Source: a virus
Reading direction: 5' to 3' (one strand)
DNA: 23,199 bases
Virus record (IMG/VR): IMGVR_UViG_3300012936_000181
Coordinates: 1 to 23,199 of that record
Part shown: piece by piece, positions 12,875-17,993 of the stretch
Position numbering within the stretch: position 1 is the stretch's first letter
Layout of the letters: every line of letters begins with the position of its first letter
Notes under the pieces: model-generated
Told to the model about the DNA's origin: nothing
Database searches by the model: none
What the model saw: the letters and a program-made list of their open reading frames with translations, nothing else
Made by a program: the position numbers and the translations under genes

Positions 12875-12992
12875 ATTTCTCTCCTTTGTTAAGGTCTTCA
12901 GACCATTTTCCTAAATCTCTAAACCCCGACACTATTAATAGTATCGTAGCTGTTATAATATATATTTCAATGCTGTTCAAAGAGATACCCAT
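12861..12992 (-). CDS. Possible small membrane protein overlapping ERF and the HTH gene
   Basis: 43 aa, ATG at 12992. MGISLNSIEIYIITATILLIVSGF gives one membrane segment (about residues 8-24), then a charged tail (RDLGKWSEDLNKGEKYGKK). It overlaps the HTH gene by 26 bp and ERF by 14 bp, and spans the otherwise empty 12875-12966. A GAGGA lies close to the start but with short spacing. The clear membrane/charged layout supports it; the start site is uncertain. Confidence 0.5.
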   Translation of the reverse strand: MGISLNSIEIYIITATILLIVSGFRDLGKWSEDLNKGEKYGKK

Positions 12993-13170
12993 AGTCCTCT
13001 TGCAGAGCATAGCATATTGCATATTTTCTGCTTTCTGGAATTTGACCTTTGTCTTTCCAGATATAAACAGCTTGTCTTGATACGCCGACTTTATCTGCTA
13101 ACCAAGTAACAGACCTTTGGTTTTCTTTCAACCATAAATCAAGCATATAGAAGTCATTTAGTTTATTCAT
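12967..13170 (-). CDS. Cro/Cl-type helix-turn-helix protein
   Basis: 67 aa. WLADKVGVSRQAVYIWKDKGQIPE is a textbook helix-turn-helix of the XRE/Cro family with the usual Trp-Lys after the recognition helix. Length is that of Cro. AAGGAG precedes the ATG at 13170. Candidate targets are the repeats in the 13.6-14.0 kb and 17.6-17.75 kb gaps. Confidence 0.7.
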   Translation of the reverse strand: MNKLNDFYMLDLWLKENQRSVTWLADKVGVSRQAVYIWKDKGQIPESRKYAICYALQEDYGYLFEQH

Positions 13171-13765: not shown

Positions 13766-13807
13766 GATAATTAAATAATATTGTTTTTGTAGAGATAAAA
13801 GTTTATT

Positions 13808-13837
13808 TTAAAGGGAGTAATTCAAGGGTTTTTTCAT
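13808..13837 (-). CDS. Nine-codon ORF, possible leader peptide or cassette remnant
   Basis: MKKPLNYSL, with AAAGGAAAGGG just upstream and, further upstream, CCAACCTAACAAAG, the same leader as in the 14-17 kb array. AAGGGT before the ATG pairs with ACCCTT in codons 3-5 and could hide the ribosome site. It may be a leader peptide, or the remains of a cassette that lost its gene. Confidence 0.3.
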   Translation of the reverse strand: MKKPLNYSL

Positions 13838-13867
13838 TACCCTTTCCTTTCTTTGTTAGGTTGGAAA

Positions 13868-13900
13868 ATGGGGGAAATTTATTTTTCCTCCATTTTTTTT
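13868..13900 (+). terminator. Hairpin with T8 tract
   Basis: ATGGGGGAAA (13868-13877) pairs with TTTCCTCCAT (13884-13893) on the + strand with one G-U, followed by a run of eight T. On the - strand that pair would be A-C. It therefore reads best as a + strand intrinsic terminator, although no + gene is near; it could stop antisense transcription. Confidence 0.5.
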
Positions 13901-13915
13901 ACGCCTTTAGAAAAA

Positions 13916-13970
13916 AGTATCAAGTCTAAAATAATACGAAAAAAAAAGTATCAGGTCTAAAATAATACGA
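13916..13970. repeat. Two 24-bp direct repeats, 31 bp apart
   Basis: Copies at 13916-13939 and 13947-13970 differ at one position (AGTATCARGTCTAAAATAATACGA split as AGTATCARGTC and TAAAATAATACGA). Start-to-start spacing of 31 bp is close to three helical turns, as for operators or origin iterons bound on one face. Confidence 0.7.
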
Positions 13971-14006
13971 GGGGTAAACCAGCCCGTTTTGATAGACACC
14001 CCTATC

Positions 14007-14024
14007 GGTGGGGGAGGGGAGGGG
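14007..14024 (+). other. G-run tract, possible G-quadruplex
   Basis: GG, GGGGG, GGGG and GGGG are separated by single bases on the + strand in a region that is otherwise AT-rich. It could form a G-quadruplex on the + strand, next to the repeats and parS. Confidence 0.45.
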
Positions 14025-14032
14025 TTGCCCTA

Positions 14033-14050
14033 GTGTTTCACGTGAAACAC
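14033..14050. promoter_or_regulatory. parS: Perfect parS-type ParB binding site
   Basis: An 18-bp perfect palindrome contains TGTTTCACGTGAAACA (14034-14049), identical to the chromosomal parS consensus known from Bacillus, Caulobacter and many other bacteria. A specified 16-mer has about a 5 in a million chance of occurring in a window this size. It lies 17 bp beyond the stop of the gene at 14068-14391. No ParB-like gene is in the window. Confidence 0.85.
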
Positions 14051-14067
14051 CAGAGCAATTTGATAGG

Positions 14068-14391
14068 TCAATCAAGACGATTGATTCTGCGAAGTGTGGA
14101 AGCAATTTCTCTTGGGGTTAGCCAACCAAGAACATCTGAAGTTATTGGCGTGTCGTAGGTAATGTACCAACCAGACTCAAATTGATGTTCTGTTCGGCTC
14201 ATCAAGGGCTTTCTAAAGCTAATGACAGCTAATTCCCAGAAATGCTTTTTTCCGTAGCTTCTTGAGTGAGAAACAACACTAGCTCCTAAGTCATTAGGAA
14301 ACCTAAAAATGTGTTGAACTCCGTCGTGAAGTGTACGGCTATTGACAAGAAAATCGTTAAGATTTCCTGTGAATCTCTGTATTTCGTTCAT
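14068..14391 (-). CDS. Cassette-array protein of unknown function
   Basis: 107 aa from ATG 14391 (MNEIQRFTGNLNDFLVNSRT), with AAAGGAG 6 bases upstream; an earlier ATG at 14451 lies before the leader and is not used. It has an aromatic core (KKHFWELAVISFRKPL and FESGWYITYDTP) and a C-terminal helix (TPREIASTLRRINRL). It is the last gene of the array, next to parS. No family recognised. Confidence 0.65.
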   Translation of the reverse strand: MNEIQRFTGNLNDFLVNSRTLHDGVQHIFRFPNDLGASVVSHSRSYGKKHFWELAVISFRKPLMSRTEHQFESGWYITYDTPITSDVLGWLTPREIASTLRRINRLD

Positions 14392-14470
14392 TGTGTTCTC
14401 CTTTGTTCGGTTTTGTTTGGGGTTATATTGCTCAGAAGTGAGCAAAGACACCCCCGATTTCTCGGGGGCG
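14392..14470 (-). promoter_or_regulatory. Cassette leader 8: hairpin plus conserved leader
   Basis: On the - strand ACGCCCCCGA pairs with TCGGGGGTGT around GAAA-like loop bases (14448-14470), one position being G-U on this strand but A-C on the other. A second hairpin, TTGCTCA/TGAGCAA, follows. The usual end is present: AACAAAGGAG then the ATG. Confidence 0.6.
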
Positions 14471-14476
14471 TTTAGG

Positions 14477-14872
14477 TTATTTAATCTTAGCGTTGGGGAT
14501 ACTAAGAGTGCCAGACTTTAACAACTTTCTGGCTTCTTTAATTTTAATGCCTAGAACTGAGTGTCTAGTACATCTTTTTTCATCTAGCGCTGATTGTATA
14601 GCAGTTCGAAGTTTTATGTTCTTATTTGTTCTAAGTAGATATTTTCTTTTTTCTATATCTCTTTTGATTGACATTTCTAACTCTTTGCCTGTTTTTCTTC
14701 GTTTTGCATTTTTGATTCTAGCTTTAACACGTTGTTCTTTATTTGTCCAATATTGTGCCGTGCTATAAGCAACATCAAACTTATCGGCTATGCTTTGATA
14801 AGTCCAGCCCTCAGCTCTAAGTTCTCGCATTTTATTGACGTCTTCTTGAGTCAATTTATAGCGTTTATCCAT
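14477..14872 (-). CDS. Helix-turn-helix regulator-like protein in the cassette array
   Basis: 131 aa from ATG 14872 (MDKRYKLTQEDVNKMREL); the upstream ATG at 14917 lies before the leader. GWTYQSIADKFDVAYSTAQYW (residues 19-39) is an HTH like those of resolvases and phage regulators. The rest is very basic (NAKRRKTGKELEMSIKRDIEKR) and fits DNA binding. It is the only array gene with a DNA-binding fold, so it may regulate the array or the repeats nearby. Confidence 0.65.
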   Translation of the reverse strand: MDKRYKLTQEDVNKMRELRAEGWTYQSIADKFDVAYSTAQYWTNKEQRVKARIKNAKRRKTGKELEMSIKRDIEKRKYLLRTNKNIKLRTAIQSALDEKRCTRHSVLGIKIKEARKLLKSGTLSIPNAKIK

Positions 14873-14971
14873 TATTTTCTCCTTTGTTGGGGTTAATGAA
14901 ATTTTCGCTTGAATCAAAAAAACTTTCTCTACGGCTAGTCATCAACCAAGAAAGTTATAACTCATCAAGCG
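14873..14971 (-). promoter_or_regulatory. Cassette leader 7 with a - strand terminator-like hairpin
   Basis: AACTTTCT (14949-14956 in + coordinates) pairs with AGAAAGTT (14921-14928), followed by a T tract on the - strand. An outer 7-bp pair CGCTTGA/TCAAGCG (14906-14912, 14965-14971) encloses it. This is the only unit in the array with a clear T tract in the gene direction. The leader ends ACCCCAACAAAGGAG before the ATG. Confidence 0.6.
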
Positions 14972-14996
14972 TTAGTTTTAAAATCCAATTTACAGA

Positions 14997-15314
14997 CTAA
15001 TTATTCCACCTGTCAGACTTCTTGATGTCGTATGCGTTCCAAAGCCACTCGCTGACTGATTCGTTCCAATCTTCATCAGTCATATTATCAACATCTTCAA
15101 GATAATCTTCAAACGGAATTTCTGACTCGTGGTAACTGGCAAACTCTCTCCAGCAGTCCCACTCTCCACAAACTCTGTGGTCGTCTTCGTATTCGTTCAT
15201 AGTCCAACCGACATAGAAAGTAGTAATTTCTTCGCCACACATACTACATAAACAAGTAGGTGTTTCTTGTGGTATTTCTCTATGAACATTTACTGCGCTG
15301 TATTCGTATTTCAT
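14997..15314 (-). CDS. Acidic zinc-finger protein in the cassette array
   Basis: 105 aa. TCLCSMCGEEI (C21, C23, C26) and RVCGEWDCW give two cysteine knuckles suited to one zinc. The C-terminal half is strongly acidic (EIPFEDYLEDVDNMTDEDWN); I count 26 Asp/Glu against 7 Lys/Arg overall. AAAGGAG lies 7 bases before the ATG. Small acidic early proteins of phages are often inhibitors of host defence or host enzymes; that role is only inferred here. Confidence 0.65.
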   Translation of the reverse strand: MKYEYSAVNVHREIPQETPTCLCSMCGEEITTFYVGWTMNEYEDDHRVCGEWDCWREFASYHESEIPFEDYLEDVDNMTDEDWNESVSEWLWNAYDIKKSDRWNN

Positions 15315-15400
15315 ATTGTTCTCCTTTGTTAGGGTTAAGTAAAATCTTGCCCTCTCTGTACATAATATTATTCCCCTGTAGGGTCTCAGTAAGAGAGGGC
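15315..15400 (-). promoter_or_regulatory. Cassette leader 6: hairpin plus conserved leader
   Basis: On the - strand GCCCTCTCT pairs with AGAGAGGGC (15349-15400), with an inner CCCTACAGGGG hairpin. It is followed by CAAGATTTTACTTAACC, CTAACAAAGGAG and the ATG. The same outer stem is repeated at 15407-15475. Confidence 0.65.
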
Positions 15401-15406
15401 TTTTTT

Positions 15407-15475
15407 GCCCTCTCTGTTCTCATAACTGGTCTGCGCTAATTTACGTTTATTAGTAGGTTCTCAGTAAGAGAGGGC
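15407..15475 (-). repeat. Second copy of the same hairpin, without its own gene
   Basis: GCCCTCTCT and AGAGAGGGC ends match those of the hairpin at 15349-15400. A 19-bp identical block, TCTCAGTAAGAGAGGGCTT on the + strand, occurs at 15384-15402 and 15459-15477. The internal loops differ completely, and no gene or ribosome site separates the copies. Confidence 0.7.
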
Positions 15476-15494
15476 TTGTCCAACCCCAACTGGA

Positions 15495-15695
15495 CTAAAA
15501 TAAATTCAAGTCGGGGTTTAATAGCTTGAGTACAACTATTTTCATAGCTGTTGCAAAGCCCACTCTGAATTGATGTGGCTCTGCGTCAAGGTCGTAGTCT
15601 GATAGTTTGTCCAATATTTCTTGGACACAATCTCTCAGCTCCTCATCAGACAAATTTATATCTTTAAATTTAATCTGTACGACTTCTTCACTCAT
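15495..15695 (-). CDS. Small acidic cassette-array protein
   Basis: 66 aa from ATG 15695 (MSEEVVQIKFKDINLSDEELRD), with AAAGGAG 6 bases upstream. An ATG at 15770 would precede the leader and is rejected. Two helices are likely: LSDEELRDCVQEILDKLSDYD, and the one containing FATAMKIVVLKLL. Net charge is about -7. No family recognised. Confidence 0.65.
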   Translation of the reverse strand: MSEEVVQIKFKDINLSDEELRDCVQEILDKLSDYDLDAEPHQFRVGFATAMKIVVLKLLNPDLNLF

Positions 15696-15757
15696 TGTTT
15701 TCTCCTTTGTTTTGGTTAATAAAATTCTTGTAGGTAGCCCCGAACTGAATCGGGGCT
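15696..15757 (-). promoter_or_regulatory. Cassette leader 5: hairpin plus conserved leader
   Basis: AGCCCCGA (15736-15743) and TCGGGGCT (15750-15757) form a perfect 8-bp stem. On the - strand AAGAATTTTATTAACC, AAAACAAAGGAG and the ATG follow. On the + strand TTATTT follows. Confidence 0.65.
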
Positions 15758-15926
15758 TTATTTGAGCCAATTTATATGCGCCACAGAGAGCAGGTTTGTT
15801 TGAATAATGCGTGAGAGCGCCTTACCTGTGAACTTTTACATTAATTGGTCGCCGTCCTAATAAGTAAAATTTTGCCCCAAGTAGACGTCCAGGACTTATT
15901 ATAATAGAGACTACTCGGGGACTTTT
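15758..15926 (-). other. Gene-less cassette unit: hairpin and half a leader
   Basis: CCCCGAGTAG pairs with CTACTTGGGG on the - strand (15875-15920, one G-U that is A-C on the + strand). GCAAAATTTTACTT follows, the first half of the array leader, but then no Shine-Dalgarno site or gene. The remainder (15758-15870) has a CCAATT/AATTGG outer pair and CACAG/CTGTG pairs, and no ORF. Confidence 0.55.
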
Positions 15927-16217
15927 TTAGTTGGTTTTTTTGGGCTGTACTTCTTCGGCAGTAAAATAACTTTCTTCTTCAAAGTTAGGTTCATAATCGC
16001 CGTCTAAGTAAACCGAAGCGTTCATACGTATATCGTCATAGACAATATCATAAATTGAGTCAGCGTCCCAGCCGTCAGAAAATTCTTCTTGGGCTTTTTG
16101 GACTGCTTCGTCGTAGCTGTTCGCTTCTACTTCAATAACATCTTCCCACTCTTTGGACACGTCAGATAATTCAATGTCCAAAGGTATAGAAATAGTTACG
16201 TTGTACTTTTTACTCAT
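15927..16217 (-). CDS. Very acidic cassette-array protein, DNA-mimic candidate
   Basis: 96 aa. I count 26 Asp/Glu against 7 Lys/Arg (net about -19), spread over the whole chain: VSKEWEDVIEVEANSYDEAV, EEFSDGWDADSIYDIVYDD and YEPNFEEESYF. This size and charge resemble phage DNA-mimic anti-restriction proteins such as Ocr and ArdA-type proteins, but no sequence match is claimed. AAAGGAG lies 6 bases before ATG 16217. Confidence 0.65.
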   Translation of the reverse strand: MSKKYNVTISIPLDIELSDVSKEWEDVIEVEANSYDEAVQKAQEEFSDGWDADSIYDIVYDDIRMNASVYLDGDYEPNFEEESYFTAEEVQPKKTN

Positions 16218-16284
16218 TGTTTTCTCCTTTGTTAGGGTTAAATAAATACTTGCCCGTAAACGCTTAAAATACAGCTTCTACGGG
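16218..16284 (-). promoter_or_regulatory. Cassette leader 4: hairpin plus conserved leader
   Basis: CCCGTA and TACGGG (16253-16284) form the base of an 11-position stem. On the - strand one further pair is G-U where the + strand has A-C. AAGTATTTATTTAACC, CTAACAAAGGAG and the ATG follow. Confidence 0.65.
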
Positions 16285-16292
16285 ACTTTTGA

Positions 16293-16466
16293 TTAATCAG
16301 CTAATAGTATGACGCCTAGACTTCCAATAATACCAGTATAAGCGATATATACAAATGGTTCATATTGCCAACCATAATACCACAGAATAAATAATACACC
16401 CACAGAATAAACTAATAAAGTTGGGGCAACTATTTTTTCCATAATTGTAAATAGTATATGCTTCAT
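16293..16466 (-). CDS. Small two-pass membrane protein in the cassette array
   Basis: 57 aa, MKHILFTIMEKIVAPTL then two hydrophobic segments, about residues 14-31 (LLVYSVGVLFILWYY) and 38-56 (FVYIAYTGIIGSLGVILLA), with a short polar turn. AAAGGAG sits 7 bases before the ATG at 16466. The topology would suit a holin or a superinfection-exclusion protein; neither is shown. Confidence 0.65.
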   Translation of the reverse strand: MKHILFTIMEKIVAPTLLVYSVGVLFILWYYGWQYEPFVYIAYTGIIGSLGVILLAD

Positions 16467-16521
16467 TTTAATCTCCTTTGTTAGGTTGTAAATTCTTGCC
16501 TCCCAGCGAGAAACTGGGAGG
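16467..16521 (-). promoter_or_regulatory. Cassette leader 3: hairpin plus conserved leader
   Basis: CCTCCCAG (16499-16506) and CTGGGAGG (16514-16521) form a perfect 8-bp stem. On the - strand GCAAGAATTTACAACC, TAACAAAGGAG and the ATG follow. On the + strand it is followed by TCTTTTTT, so it also looks like a + strand terminator. The T run includes the stop codon of the neighbouring gene. Confidence 0.65.
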
Positions 16522-16527
16522 TCTTTT

Positions 16528-16821
16528 TTATTTGTTAAGAAAAATAGCGTCTTTTAGTTGTTGTGTGTTCATCTCTACAAATTCAAGCTGACCAATCCAA
16601 GATATATCTGGTTTTGATTGTGTCATCTGTTTTGAAGTTGTGACGCTGTATTTATCGCTGTTTTTTACCCAAGTTCCATTGATACAAGCGTAAATTGGAA
16701 AATGGTAGCCGTAAGAATACACAACATAATGTCCGTTTTGAATCTCGGCAAATAAATTATTTGCTTTGAAAGTTTCACGTCTTGTTGTGTGTTCGTGGCT
16801 TTTTGCGTTTGTTGTTCTCAT
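16528..16821 (-). CDS. Cassette-array protein of unknown function
   Basis: 97 aa, MRTTNAKSHEHTTRRETFKA then a strand-rich core (NGHYVVYSYGYHFPIYACI, NGTWVKNSDKYSVTTSKQ) and a C-terminal helix (FVEMNTQQLKDAIFLNK). AAAGGAG lies 6 bases before the ATG at 16821. It resembles small single-domain phage proteins of the DUF type; no family recognised. Confidence 0.65.
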   Translation of the reverse strand: MRTTNAKSHEHTTRRETFKANNLFAEIQNGHYVVYSYGYHFPIYACINGTWVKNSDKYSVTTSKQMTQSKPDISWIGQLEFVEMNTQQLKDAIFLNK

Positions 16822-16880
16822 TGTGTTCTCCTTTGTTAGGGTTAAATAAAATTTTGCCCCCAGCCGTTAAACTGGGGGGC
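16822..16880 (-). promoter_or_regulatory. Cassette leader 2: hairpin plus conserved leader
   Basis: GCCCCCAG (16856-16863) and CTGGGGGGC (16872-16880) form the stem, with one extra base. On the - strand CAAAATTTTATTTAACC, CTAACAAAGGAG and the ATG follow. On the + strand seven T follow, again including the neighbouring stop codon. Confidence 0.65.
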
Positions 16881-16885
16881 TTTTT

Positions 16886-17092
16886 TTATTTGATTTTGTC
16901 CTCTAATTGCCAAGCAATATCGCAGAATAATTTTGCTAGAACATCTTCAAAAGACCAATTCCTTACATAGTCAGAAACTTTGTAGTCTTTCAAGTCTTGA
17001 AAGAATCTTTTTTTATCTTCTGCTGTGTAGTCCATTTCATTGAAATATGTCTCTATGTATTCAATCAAATATGTTTGTTGTACGTGTTTCAT
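16886..17092 (-). CDS. Helical cassette-array protein, first gene of the array
   Basis: 68 aa, MKHVQQTYLIEYIETYFNEM then FQDLKDYKVSDYVRNWSFED and LAKLFCDIAWQLEDKIK. The chain is probably all helical and mildly acidic. AAAGGAG lies 6 bases before the ATG at 17092. It is the first gene after a ~400-nt leader. No family recognised. Confidence 0.65.
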   Translation of the reverse strand: MKHVQQTYLIEYIETYFNEMDYTAEDKKRFFQDLKDYKVSDYVRNWSFEDVLAKLFCDIAWQLEDKIK

Positions 17093-17157
17093 TGTTTTCT
17101 CCTTTGTGGGGTTGTTTTAGTTTGCCGTTTAAGGCGTCAAATCGGACGCTTACGGGC
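17093..17157 (-). promoter_or_regulatory. Cassette leader 1: hairpin plus conserved leader
   Basis: On the - strand an outer GCC(C)GT/ACGGC pair and an inner GCGTC/GACGC stem (17124-17157) precede CAAACTAAAACAACCCC, then ACAAAGGAG and the ATG. It is the most diverged leader in the set. Confidence 0.55.
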
Positions 17158-17510
17158 TTTAAATGAAATCTTTGGGGGTTTGCTTGGTTCGGGATACCTT
17201 AACGGCGTGACTTACTACTCACAAAACCCCCTCCTGTTACAAAGGGAGGTTTTAATGATGTTCCAATTATCAAATATCTTCATCTAGAATATTTCAGCTT
17301 CTCAGCGCTTTAAATGGGTAGACTCACACGAGGGCTTAAAACCTCTTTATATTTCCGAGAGTAGTTGGAGCTAATCCGTTCCTCTTGTCCTCTACTGGCT
17401 TTAACGTGGGTTTAACAATCGTAAAGACTTGTTCAACGCTCTTTTGTCAGGTCATAATGACGCTGTCCCATTGGCTCTAGAATCAAATTGTAAAATAACT
17501 AAATCCACTA

Positions 17511-17540
17511 AGTCTACAGCTAAACAAACCAAGATGTCAA
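17511..17540 (-). promoter_or_regulatory. Candidate promoter for the cassette array
   Basis: On the - strand TTGACA (17535-17540), a perfect -35, is followed after 18 bases by TAGACT (17511-17516), a 4-of-6 -10. The start would be near 17504, leaving about 410 nt of leader before the first gene at 17092. Confidence 0.5.
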
Positions 17541-17637
17541 GAACTTTTACATATTTATCAAGTTTATTGTCTATAACTTTCTGGTATTAACTAGGGTTAA
17601 ACGCTCCAAAGTTTGTACAAAGGACTAATTGATTGGG

Positions 17638-17730
17638 TTCAAGTATCGCTTTAATGTTTGGCGTTTTTAGGTTCAAGTATTACTTTAACTTCAAGTATTA
17701 CTTTAAGGTTTAGTTAAAGTGTTACTTTAA
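17638..17730. repeat. Four 17-bp repeats, likely operators or iterons
   Basis: Copies at 17638-17654, 17672-17688, 17690-17706 and 17714-17730 read TTCAAGTATCGCTTTAA, TTCAAGTATTACTTTAA (twice) and TTAAAGTGTTACTTTAA. The last has perfect TTAAAGT/ACTTTAA arms, so the site is a pseudo-palindrome. They lie between the - promoter candidate and the + operon. Confidence 0.7.
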
Positions 17731-17993
17731 GGGGGTATAGGGTGGATTCACGCCAAAAGTGGTAGAGTAGTAGTATTCCTTGCAAAGTATAAAGTAACGA
17801 CTAAGGGGTTATAAAAAATAATAATTTAATACAGTTATATTTAAAATCAAGATTTAAAAAATATTCTGTAAACGACTAATAATAATAGACTTACAGGTTT
17901 TATGTTAAAGTAAAATATGAACTCAAAAAAAACTAGACGACCAATCCAAAAAATAAGTAGTATTTTTGTTCAACTTTCTGTTAAATTATGTGT

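Follow-up and report, generated by a model that had tools for sequence, protein, structure and literature searches.

The stretch of DNA analysed here (the window, a 23,199-bp viral fragment) raises the question of why a phage with no recognizable ParB gene should carry, among its early genes, an exact copy of the site at which bacterial chromosomal ParB docks. The sequence TGTTTCACGTGAAACA at positions 14034-14049 is the sole match to the 16-bp parS in the window at up to three mismatches and lies inside a perfect 18-bp palindrome, as the original prediction had stated; the likelihood given there for a chance occurrence, about 5 in a million, holds on recalculation, which yields about 5-8 exact 16-mers per million windows of 23,199-bp size. 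The features to which the argument below refers are as follows.

14033-14050, no strand: perfect 18-bp palindrome GTGTTTCACGTGAAACAC, enclosing the 16-bp parS and its 14-bp core
14035-14048, inside the 18-bp palindrome: 14-bp parS core GTTTCACGTGAAAC
14025-14058, minus strand: 34-nt inverted repeat centred on the parS palindrome, with stem UUGCUCUGGUGUUUC, loop ACGU and GAAACACUAGGGCAA
14009-14024: G-run tract directly adjoining the parS palindrome, read on the gene-sense strand as CCCCTCCCCTCCCCC
13911-13939 and 13942-13970: pair of 29-nt direct repeats (97% identity) sharing an intergenic region with the palindrome
14068-14451, minus strand: 127-aa ORF of the PHROG 4074 family (unknown function), its stop codon ~10 nt upstream of the start of the hairpin
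12967-13170, minus strand: 67-aa Cro-like helix-turn-helix protein, chief competitor among the phage's own proteins as a binder of the palindrome

The nearby repeats reported earlier do exist, although at 29 nt rather than the 24 bp then given, and are possibly lineage-specific operators. The G-run tract is kept in the three closest relatives of the window and in L224, a relative that carries no parS site.

The window encodes structural and packaging proteins (TerL, tail completion protein, tail tube and tape measure) together with an Erf-type annealing protein, a DnaD-like helicase loader, an exonuclease-like phosphoesterase and the Cro-like protein; searches of it for Rfam families and tRNAs found none. 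A TerL search of IMG/VR retrieved more than 100 close relatives, the largest single-genome contigs of the family being ~34 kb, and the phage belongs to a marine siphophage-type family for which a near-DNA search and searches with the portal and one large tail protein returned no close relative among cultured phages. For the host, TerL was searched against 84,980 genomes, both as a single sequence and as an alignment, without a match. No integrase match rose above the cut-off in 20 family records, the only signal being a sub-cutoff one of 15 bits in a 91-aa ORF of the window, and for this reason the gene content suggests that the phage is probably lytic.

Two further observations concern the layout of the early region. 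On the minus strand of the window at 13800-17000, the small-gene cassettes open with almost the same leader, AACCCNAACAAAGGAGAAAACAATG, and hairpins precede several of them; such a modular arrangement might favour the shuffling of cassettes through recombination. The divergent control region (17093-17770 in the window, 15490-15620 in L148, and also seen in L232) carries lineage-specific repeats (TTAAAGTAATACTTGAA; GAATTATGTATAATTC; GACTGAGTAGTCGG), which differ between close relatives in the manner of immunity-type operators.

Recurrence of the parS core within the family

Conservation in related phages had been proposed as a check on the palindrome, and the exact site proved to be kept at the corresponding position in L123, L203 and L202, all close relatives, a result that has little statistical weight alone because the whole region is 79% invariant. 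Four more relatives have the 14-bp core elsewhere between genes, for a total of 16 sites on 8 contigs, with one site in the window and up to three per contig in its relatives. Allowing at most one mismatch, the core is present in 6 of 43 family records, two more contigs having come from other searches; most family members among the 43 records lack the site, including the three of ~34 kb, and it is therefore not essential. The sites fall into three kinds of context.

Class A, divergent control region of L148, L232, L257 and L299: no extended hairpin; a 41-nt invariant run, AAAAAAGACCTTAAAACGTTTCACGTGAAACGGAAAGGGTG
Class B, small-gene cassettes, in the slot between a stop codon and the next ribosome-binding site: hairpin GTCC...GGCAA
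Class C, window type: extended hairpin

In neighbouring cassettes the class B slot holds plain GC hairpins with unrelated stems, and recombination between intergenic sequences that resemble one another could have carried the terminator-slot copies of the site to new places.

The simplest account of the palindrome, that it is a meaningless 16-mer singled out for its familiar look, we consider very improbable. The site is present in a single copy in the window and many sequences were scanned in the first reading, both of which would suit an accident, but conservation in relatives and recurrence at non-homologous places already refute this account, and it is contradicted by the control palindromes described below as well as by a permutation test over 1.02 Mb of family DNA, in which GTTTCACGTGAAAC was found in 9 distinct contexts whereas the other 419 of 420 palindromes of the same composition were found together in 1.

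The variation among the family copies is itself informative. Their half-sites vary only from GTTTCAC to GTTCCAC, with T or C and A or G as the outer bases; both half-sites are bound by several ParBs, and GTTTCACGTGAAAC is given as the parS of M. smegmatis (PMC7022226). Compared with the known bacterial parS sites in that source, the family copies stay within the natural variation, and because their half-sites are ParB half-sites the match to ParB specificity is more detailed than could be seen when the site was first noticed. The phage site thus shares with chromosomal parS of ParABS systems the identical 16 bp and the same tolerated variation, at positions 1 and 16 and from T to C in the half-site (PMC7022226), but differs in having no parAB nearby, in numbering one to three sites and in its hairpin context.

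The RNA hairpin and candidate readers of the site

The 34-nt repeat pairs perfectly, with G-U pairs included, only in RNA of the minus strand, which is the gene-sense strand. The predicted fold of this sense RNA is a perfect 17-bp stem of -21.9 kcal/mol (z -6.3), whereas the opposite strand reaches -16.3 kcal/mol (z -3.6). The strand difference would suit an account in which the hairpin is everything, an intergenic terminator or a stabilizer of mRNA 3' ends whose stem has been copied between cassette boundaries by recombination and whose likeness to parS is incidental. Several sites in relatives agree with such an account: the copies in L232 and L297 have a GC-rich stem followed by a T-run, like intrinsic terminators, class B copies fold like the window hairpin and sit in terminator-like hairpins between small genes, and elsewhere the slot is occupied by unrelated GC hairpins. 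L224 carries CCCTAGTGTTTTACAAGACGCTAGGG at the window slot, where the hairpin is kept and the palindrome lost; RNA structure can therefore be the conserved thing, and it is a real, separate constraint. All variation among the extended-hairpin sites likewise keeps the RNA pairing.

The window hairpin itself, however, has the GC-rich stem of an intrinsic terminator without a T-run after it. A terminator does not require any particular stem; the core is nevertheless held constant, except for GTGAAAC to GTGGAAC, while the outer arms of the hairpin vary between slots and the stems of neighbouring hairpins are unrelated; class A sites have the same core within their 41-nt invariant run and no extended hairpin at all. 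A constraint on RNA structure accounts neither for the class A sites nor for a fixed core amid changing outer arms. Exact parS is moreover enriched across phages in which a hairpin extension is rare, and we accordingly rejected the extension as a general trait of phage parS outside the window family. Taken as the whole explanation, the hairpin is therefore unlikely, albeit still credible; the doubling of the site as an RNA hairpin appears to be new.

If the palindrome is read at the DNA level, the question becomes which protein reads it. A profile search found ParB_N (PF02195) neither in the window nor in any of the 43 family records, in keeping with the earlier remark that no ParB was in view. 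The records include G009, which has three parS sites and no ParB_N and whose first ~33 kb, by comparison with G003, hold the full gene set. This 51-kb contig (IMGVR_UViG_3300030102_002442) seems to consist of one complete ~33-kb genome and part of a second, related genome, and is possibly a chimeric assembly. The partition systems of P1, N15 and mycobacteriophages comprise their own ParA and ParB, or ParB, acting with distinct sites; the window family is like them in bearing centromere-like sites on a phage but differs in having no ParB gene, and the parB within the element that marks a P1-type phage-encoded ParABS was not found in it.

A phage regulator, most likely the Cro-like protein, might instead use the palindrome as its operator, in a stoperator-like or other operator system that happens to employ the parS sequence. 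Stoperators of Cluster A mycobacteriophages are asymmetric 13-mers, present in dozens per genome and bound by the phage repressor, and the window-family sites resemble them in being short, repeated and placed in narrow gaps between phage genes. One to three copies at regulatory or intergenic places are typical of operators, and the recognition helix VSRQ[A/I]VYIWK occurs in all site-bearing contigs where the gene was seen, nearly all site-less relatives having other helices. The correlation breaks in L224, whose whole early region is covered and which has the same helix (VSRQIVYIWKDK) but no parS site, and which weakens the case for the Cro-like protein as sole recognizer. The class A site does not lie over the nearest promoter-like sequence. 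Furthermore, no phage gene with a recognizable DNA-binding domain was found to track the site perfectly within the family, the genes that co-occur with it encoding only small proteins that have no such domain and none co-occurring perfectly. An operator would also have to agree by accident with the ParB half-site at all 7 bases, and parS is enriched in unrelated phages with other regulators. We regard an operator of this kind as rather improbable. Host ParB remains, to judge from the sequences, the most economical candidate reader, and an exact parS in a family with no ParB of its own suggests that host ParB is probably recruited.

Host-type parS across phages and the possible role of the site

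A search for the 16-mer across phage genomes, also proposed at the outset, placed it far above control palindromes in both IMG/VR and cultured phages. At least 120 stretches in IMG/VR contain the parS 16-mer, compared with 33 and 6 for two control palindromes. Among the IMG/VR matches listed, 55% of 146 parS sites fall outside ORFs of at least 100 aa, against 9% for the control and ~17% for random positions (Fisher p = 5e-7 for the intergenic excess of parS over control sites), and ParB_N occurs in 4 of 100 parS-bearing contigs, many of which are fragments and some of which are perhaps prophage or host DNA. In cultured phages, 345 records match a short site-centred query, 217 of them at 99% identity or above, whereas a control palindrome in the same flanks matches 12 records, 3 at that identity; about 0.5 exact 16-mers would be expected by chance in the 2.3 Gb of cultured phages searched. 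Matching records are often close relatives, so that independent origins are fewer than the record count. All 17 isolates checked, from varied hosts, carry an exact or one-mismatch parS and 14 of the 17 are without ParB_N; among them are Listeria LP-048, Gordonia Woes, Lactobacillus LpeD and Lpa804, and Butyrivibrio Arian. The phi29-type Bacillus phages Goe23 and Goe1 have 4 and 2 exact or one-mismatch sites, respectively, and Vibrio phage phi 3 has two in each terminal repeat, none of the three having ParB_N. Phages thus carry exact parS far more often than the control palindromes, for the most part between genes and in the absence of ParB_N. A full-text search brought up 15 papers containing the 16-mer; no survey of host-type parS in phages turned up in the literature searched, whose coverage is incomplete enough that one could be missed.

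Two published systems offer precedents. According to PMC9437464, which cites Meijer et al. 2005, the chromosomal ParB Spo0J traps the chromosome of phi29 inside the spore. The window phage would resemble phi29 as a lytic, ParB-less phage exploiting the chromosomal ParB of its host, and host-type parS without ParB or integrase was found here too, the window itself being a fragment; it differs from phi29, which uses Spo0J for spore entrapment in a Gram-positive host, in being an unrelated marine siphophage-type phage with its site within an RNA hairpin of an early-gene array. Host-ParB use by a ParB-less phage is accordingly already known in one system, and the original prediction that use of the host-type site would be something different was too strong. 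The second precedent is SGI1, which hijacks the parABS of IncC plasmids with stolen parS sites and has been shown to bind the helper ParB, to gain stability and to destabilize the helper (PMC10954446). Like the phage, this mobile element lacks a ParB of its own, and it carries two appropriated parS-like sites (PMC10954446); unlike the phage it is a replicating island, and it takes a plasmid parS, not the universal chromosomal one. Relative to these cases, the likely breadth, the marine family and the union of parS with an RNA hairpin appear to be new.

We therefore favour, with modest confidence, the reading that the palindrome is a genuine parS-type docking site for host chromosomal ParB, embedded in an intergenic hairpin among the early genes. 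Recurrence of the core, parS-like variation, the lack of a ParB gene and phage-wide over-representation all argue for the borrowing of host ParB that was first proposed; copy-number partition, one of the purposes then suggested, is unlikely because the relatives searched yielded neither an integrase nor a ParB gene. A phage that has no integrase would be likelier to use the site for positioning or as a decoy than for long-term partition, and the candidate docking site would most likely act as a decoy, an anchor or a local regulator. After injection, host ParB, which is a CTP-dependent clamp, would load at the phage parS, phage replication would multiply the one to three sites per genome, and the multiplied sites might titrate ParB away from the host's own parS sites. 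Alternatively, the sites may tie the phage genome to the ParA/SMC positioning machinery of the host, and local effects on early transcription could also occur. The core would occupy the hairpin slot because this offers free intergenic space between packed cassettes and because the palindrome is usable as an inner stem.

A broader proposal, which we put forward tentatively, is that ParB-less carriage of host chromosomal parS is a widespread convergent phage strategy for recruiting or titrating ParB, fused in the marine family with an RNA hairpin in a dual role at the DNA level (ParB) and the RNA level (termination or stability). The phages that can be named for such convergence, with the same reserve, are marine phages and those of Listeria, Lactobacillus, Bacillus, Vibrio, Gordonia, Arthrobacter and Butyrivibrio. 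Were the proposal correct, phages of many hosts, beyond the sporulation-trapping phi29, would plug into the chromosome-segregation machinery by means of a 16-bp tag; phi29 would then exemplify a general strategy, and ParB would often be interfered with or exploited by phages. Cultured phages in which this could be tested are available, for example Bacillus Goe23 and Goe1, Gordonia Woes, Arthrobacter Joann and Lactobacillus Lpa804.

Some individual matches from these searches merit separate mention. The control palindrome TCTATGTCGACATAGA matches Rhodobacter phages H257-H267 within a gene annotated as encoding a ParB-like nuclease domain, probably by chance. In the T5-like phi 3 (L311), exact and one-mismatch parS lie at 2934-2949 and 821-836, and genes A1 and A2 flank the exact copy. 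Clusters of 3-5 exact parS within ~1 kb, again with no ParB_N, occur in L017 (2657-3444), L044 (10535-11462) and L053 (240-961). L027, L042, L045, L066, L101, L111 and L119 have in common a conserved parS that frequently adjoins a GCCTAA...TTAGGC hairpin and is followed by a TTCATATCATTTTTCACATG-like sequence, and apparently represent another viral family with a conserved host-type parS.
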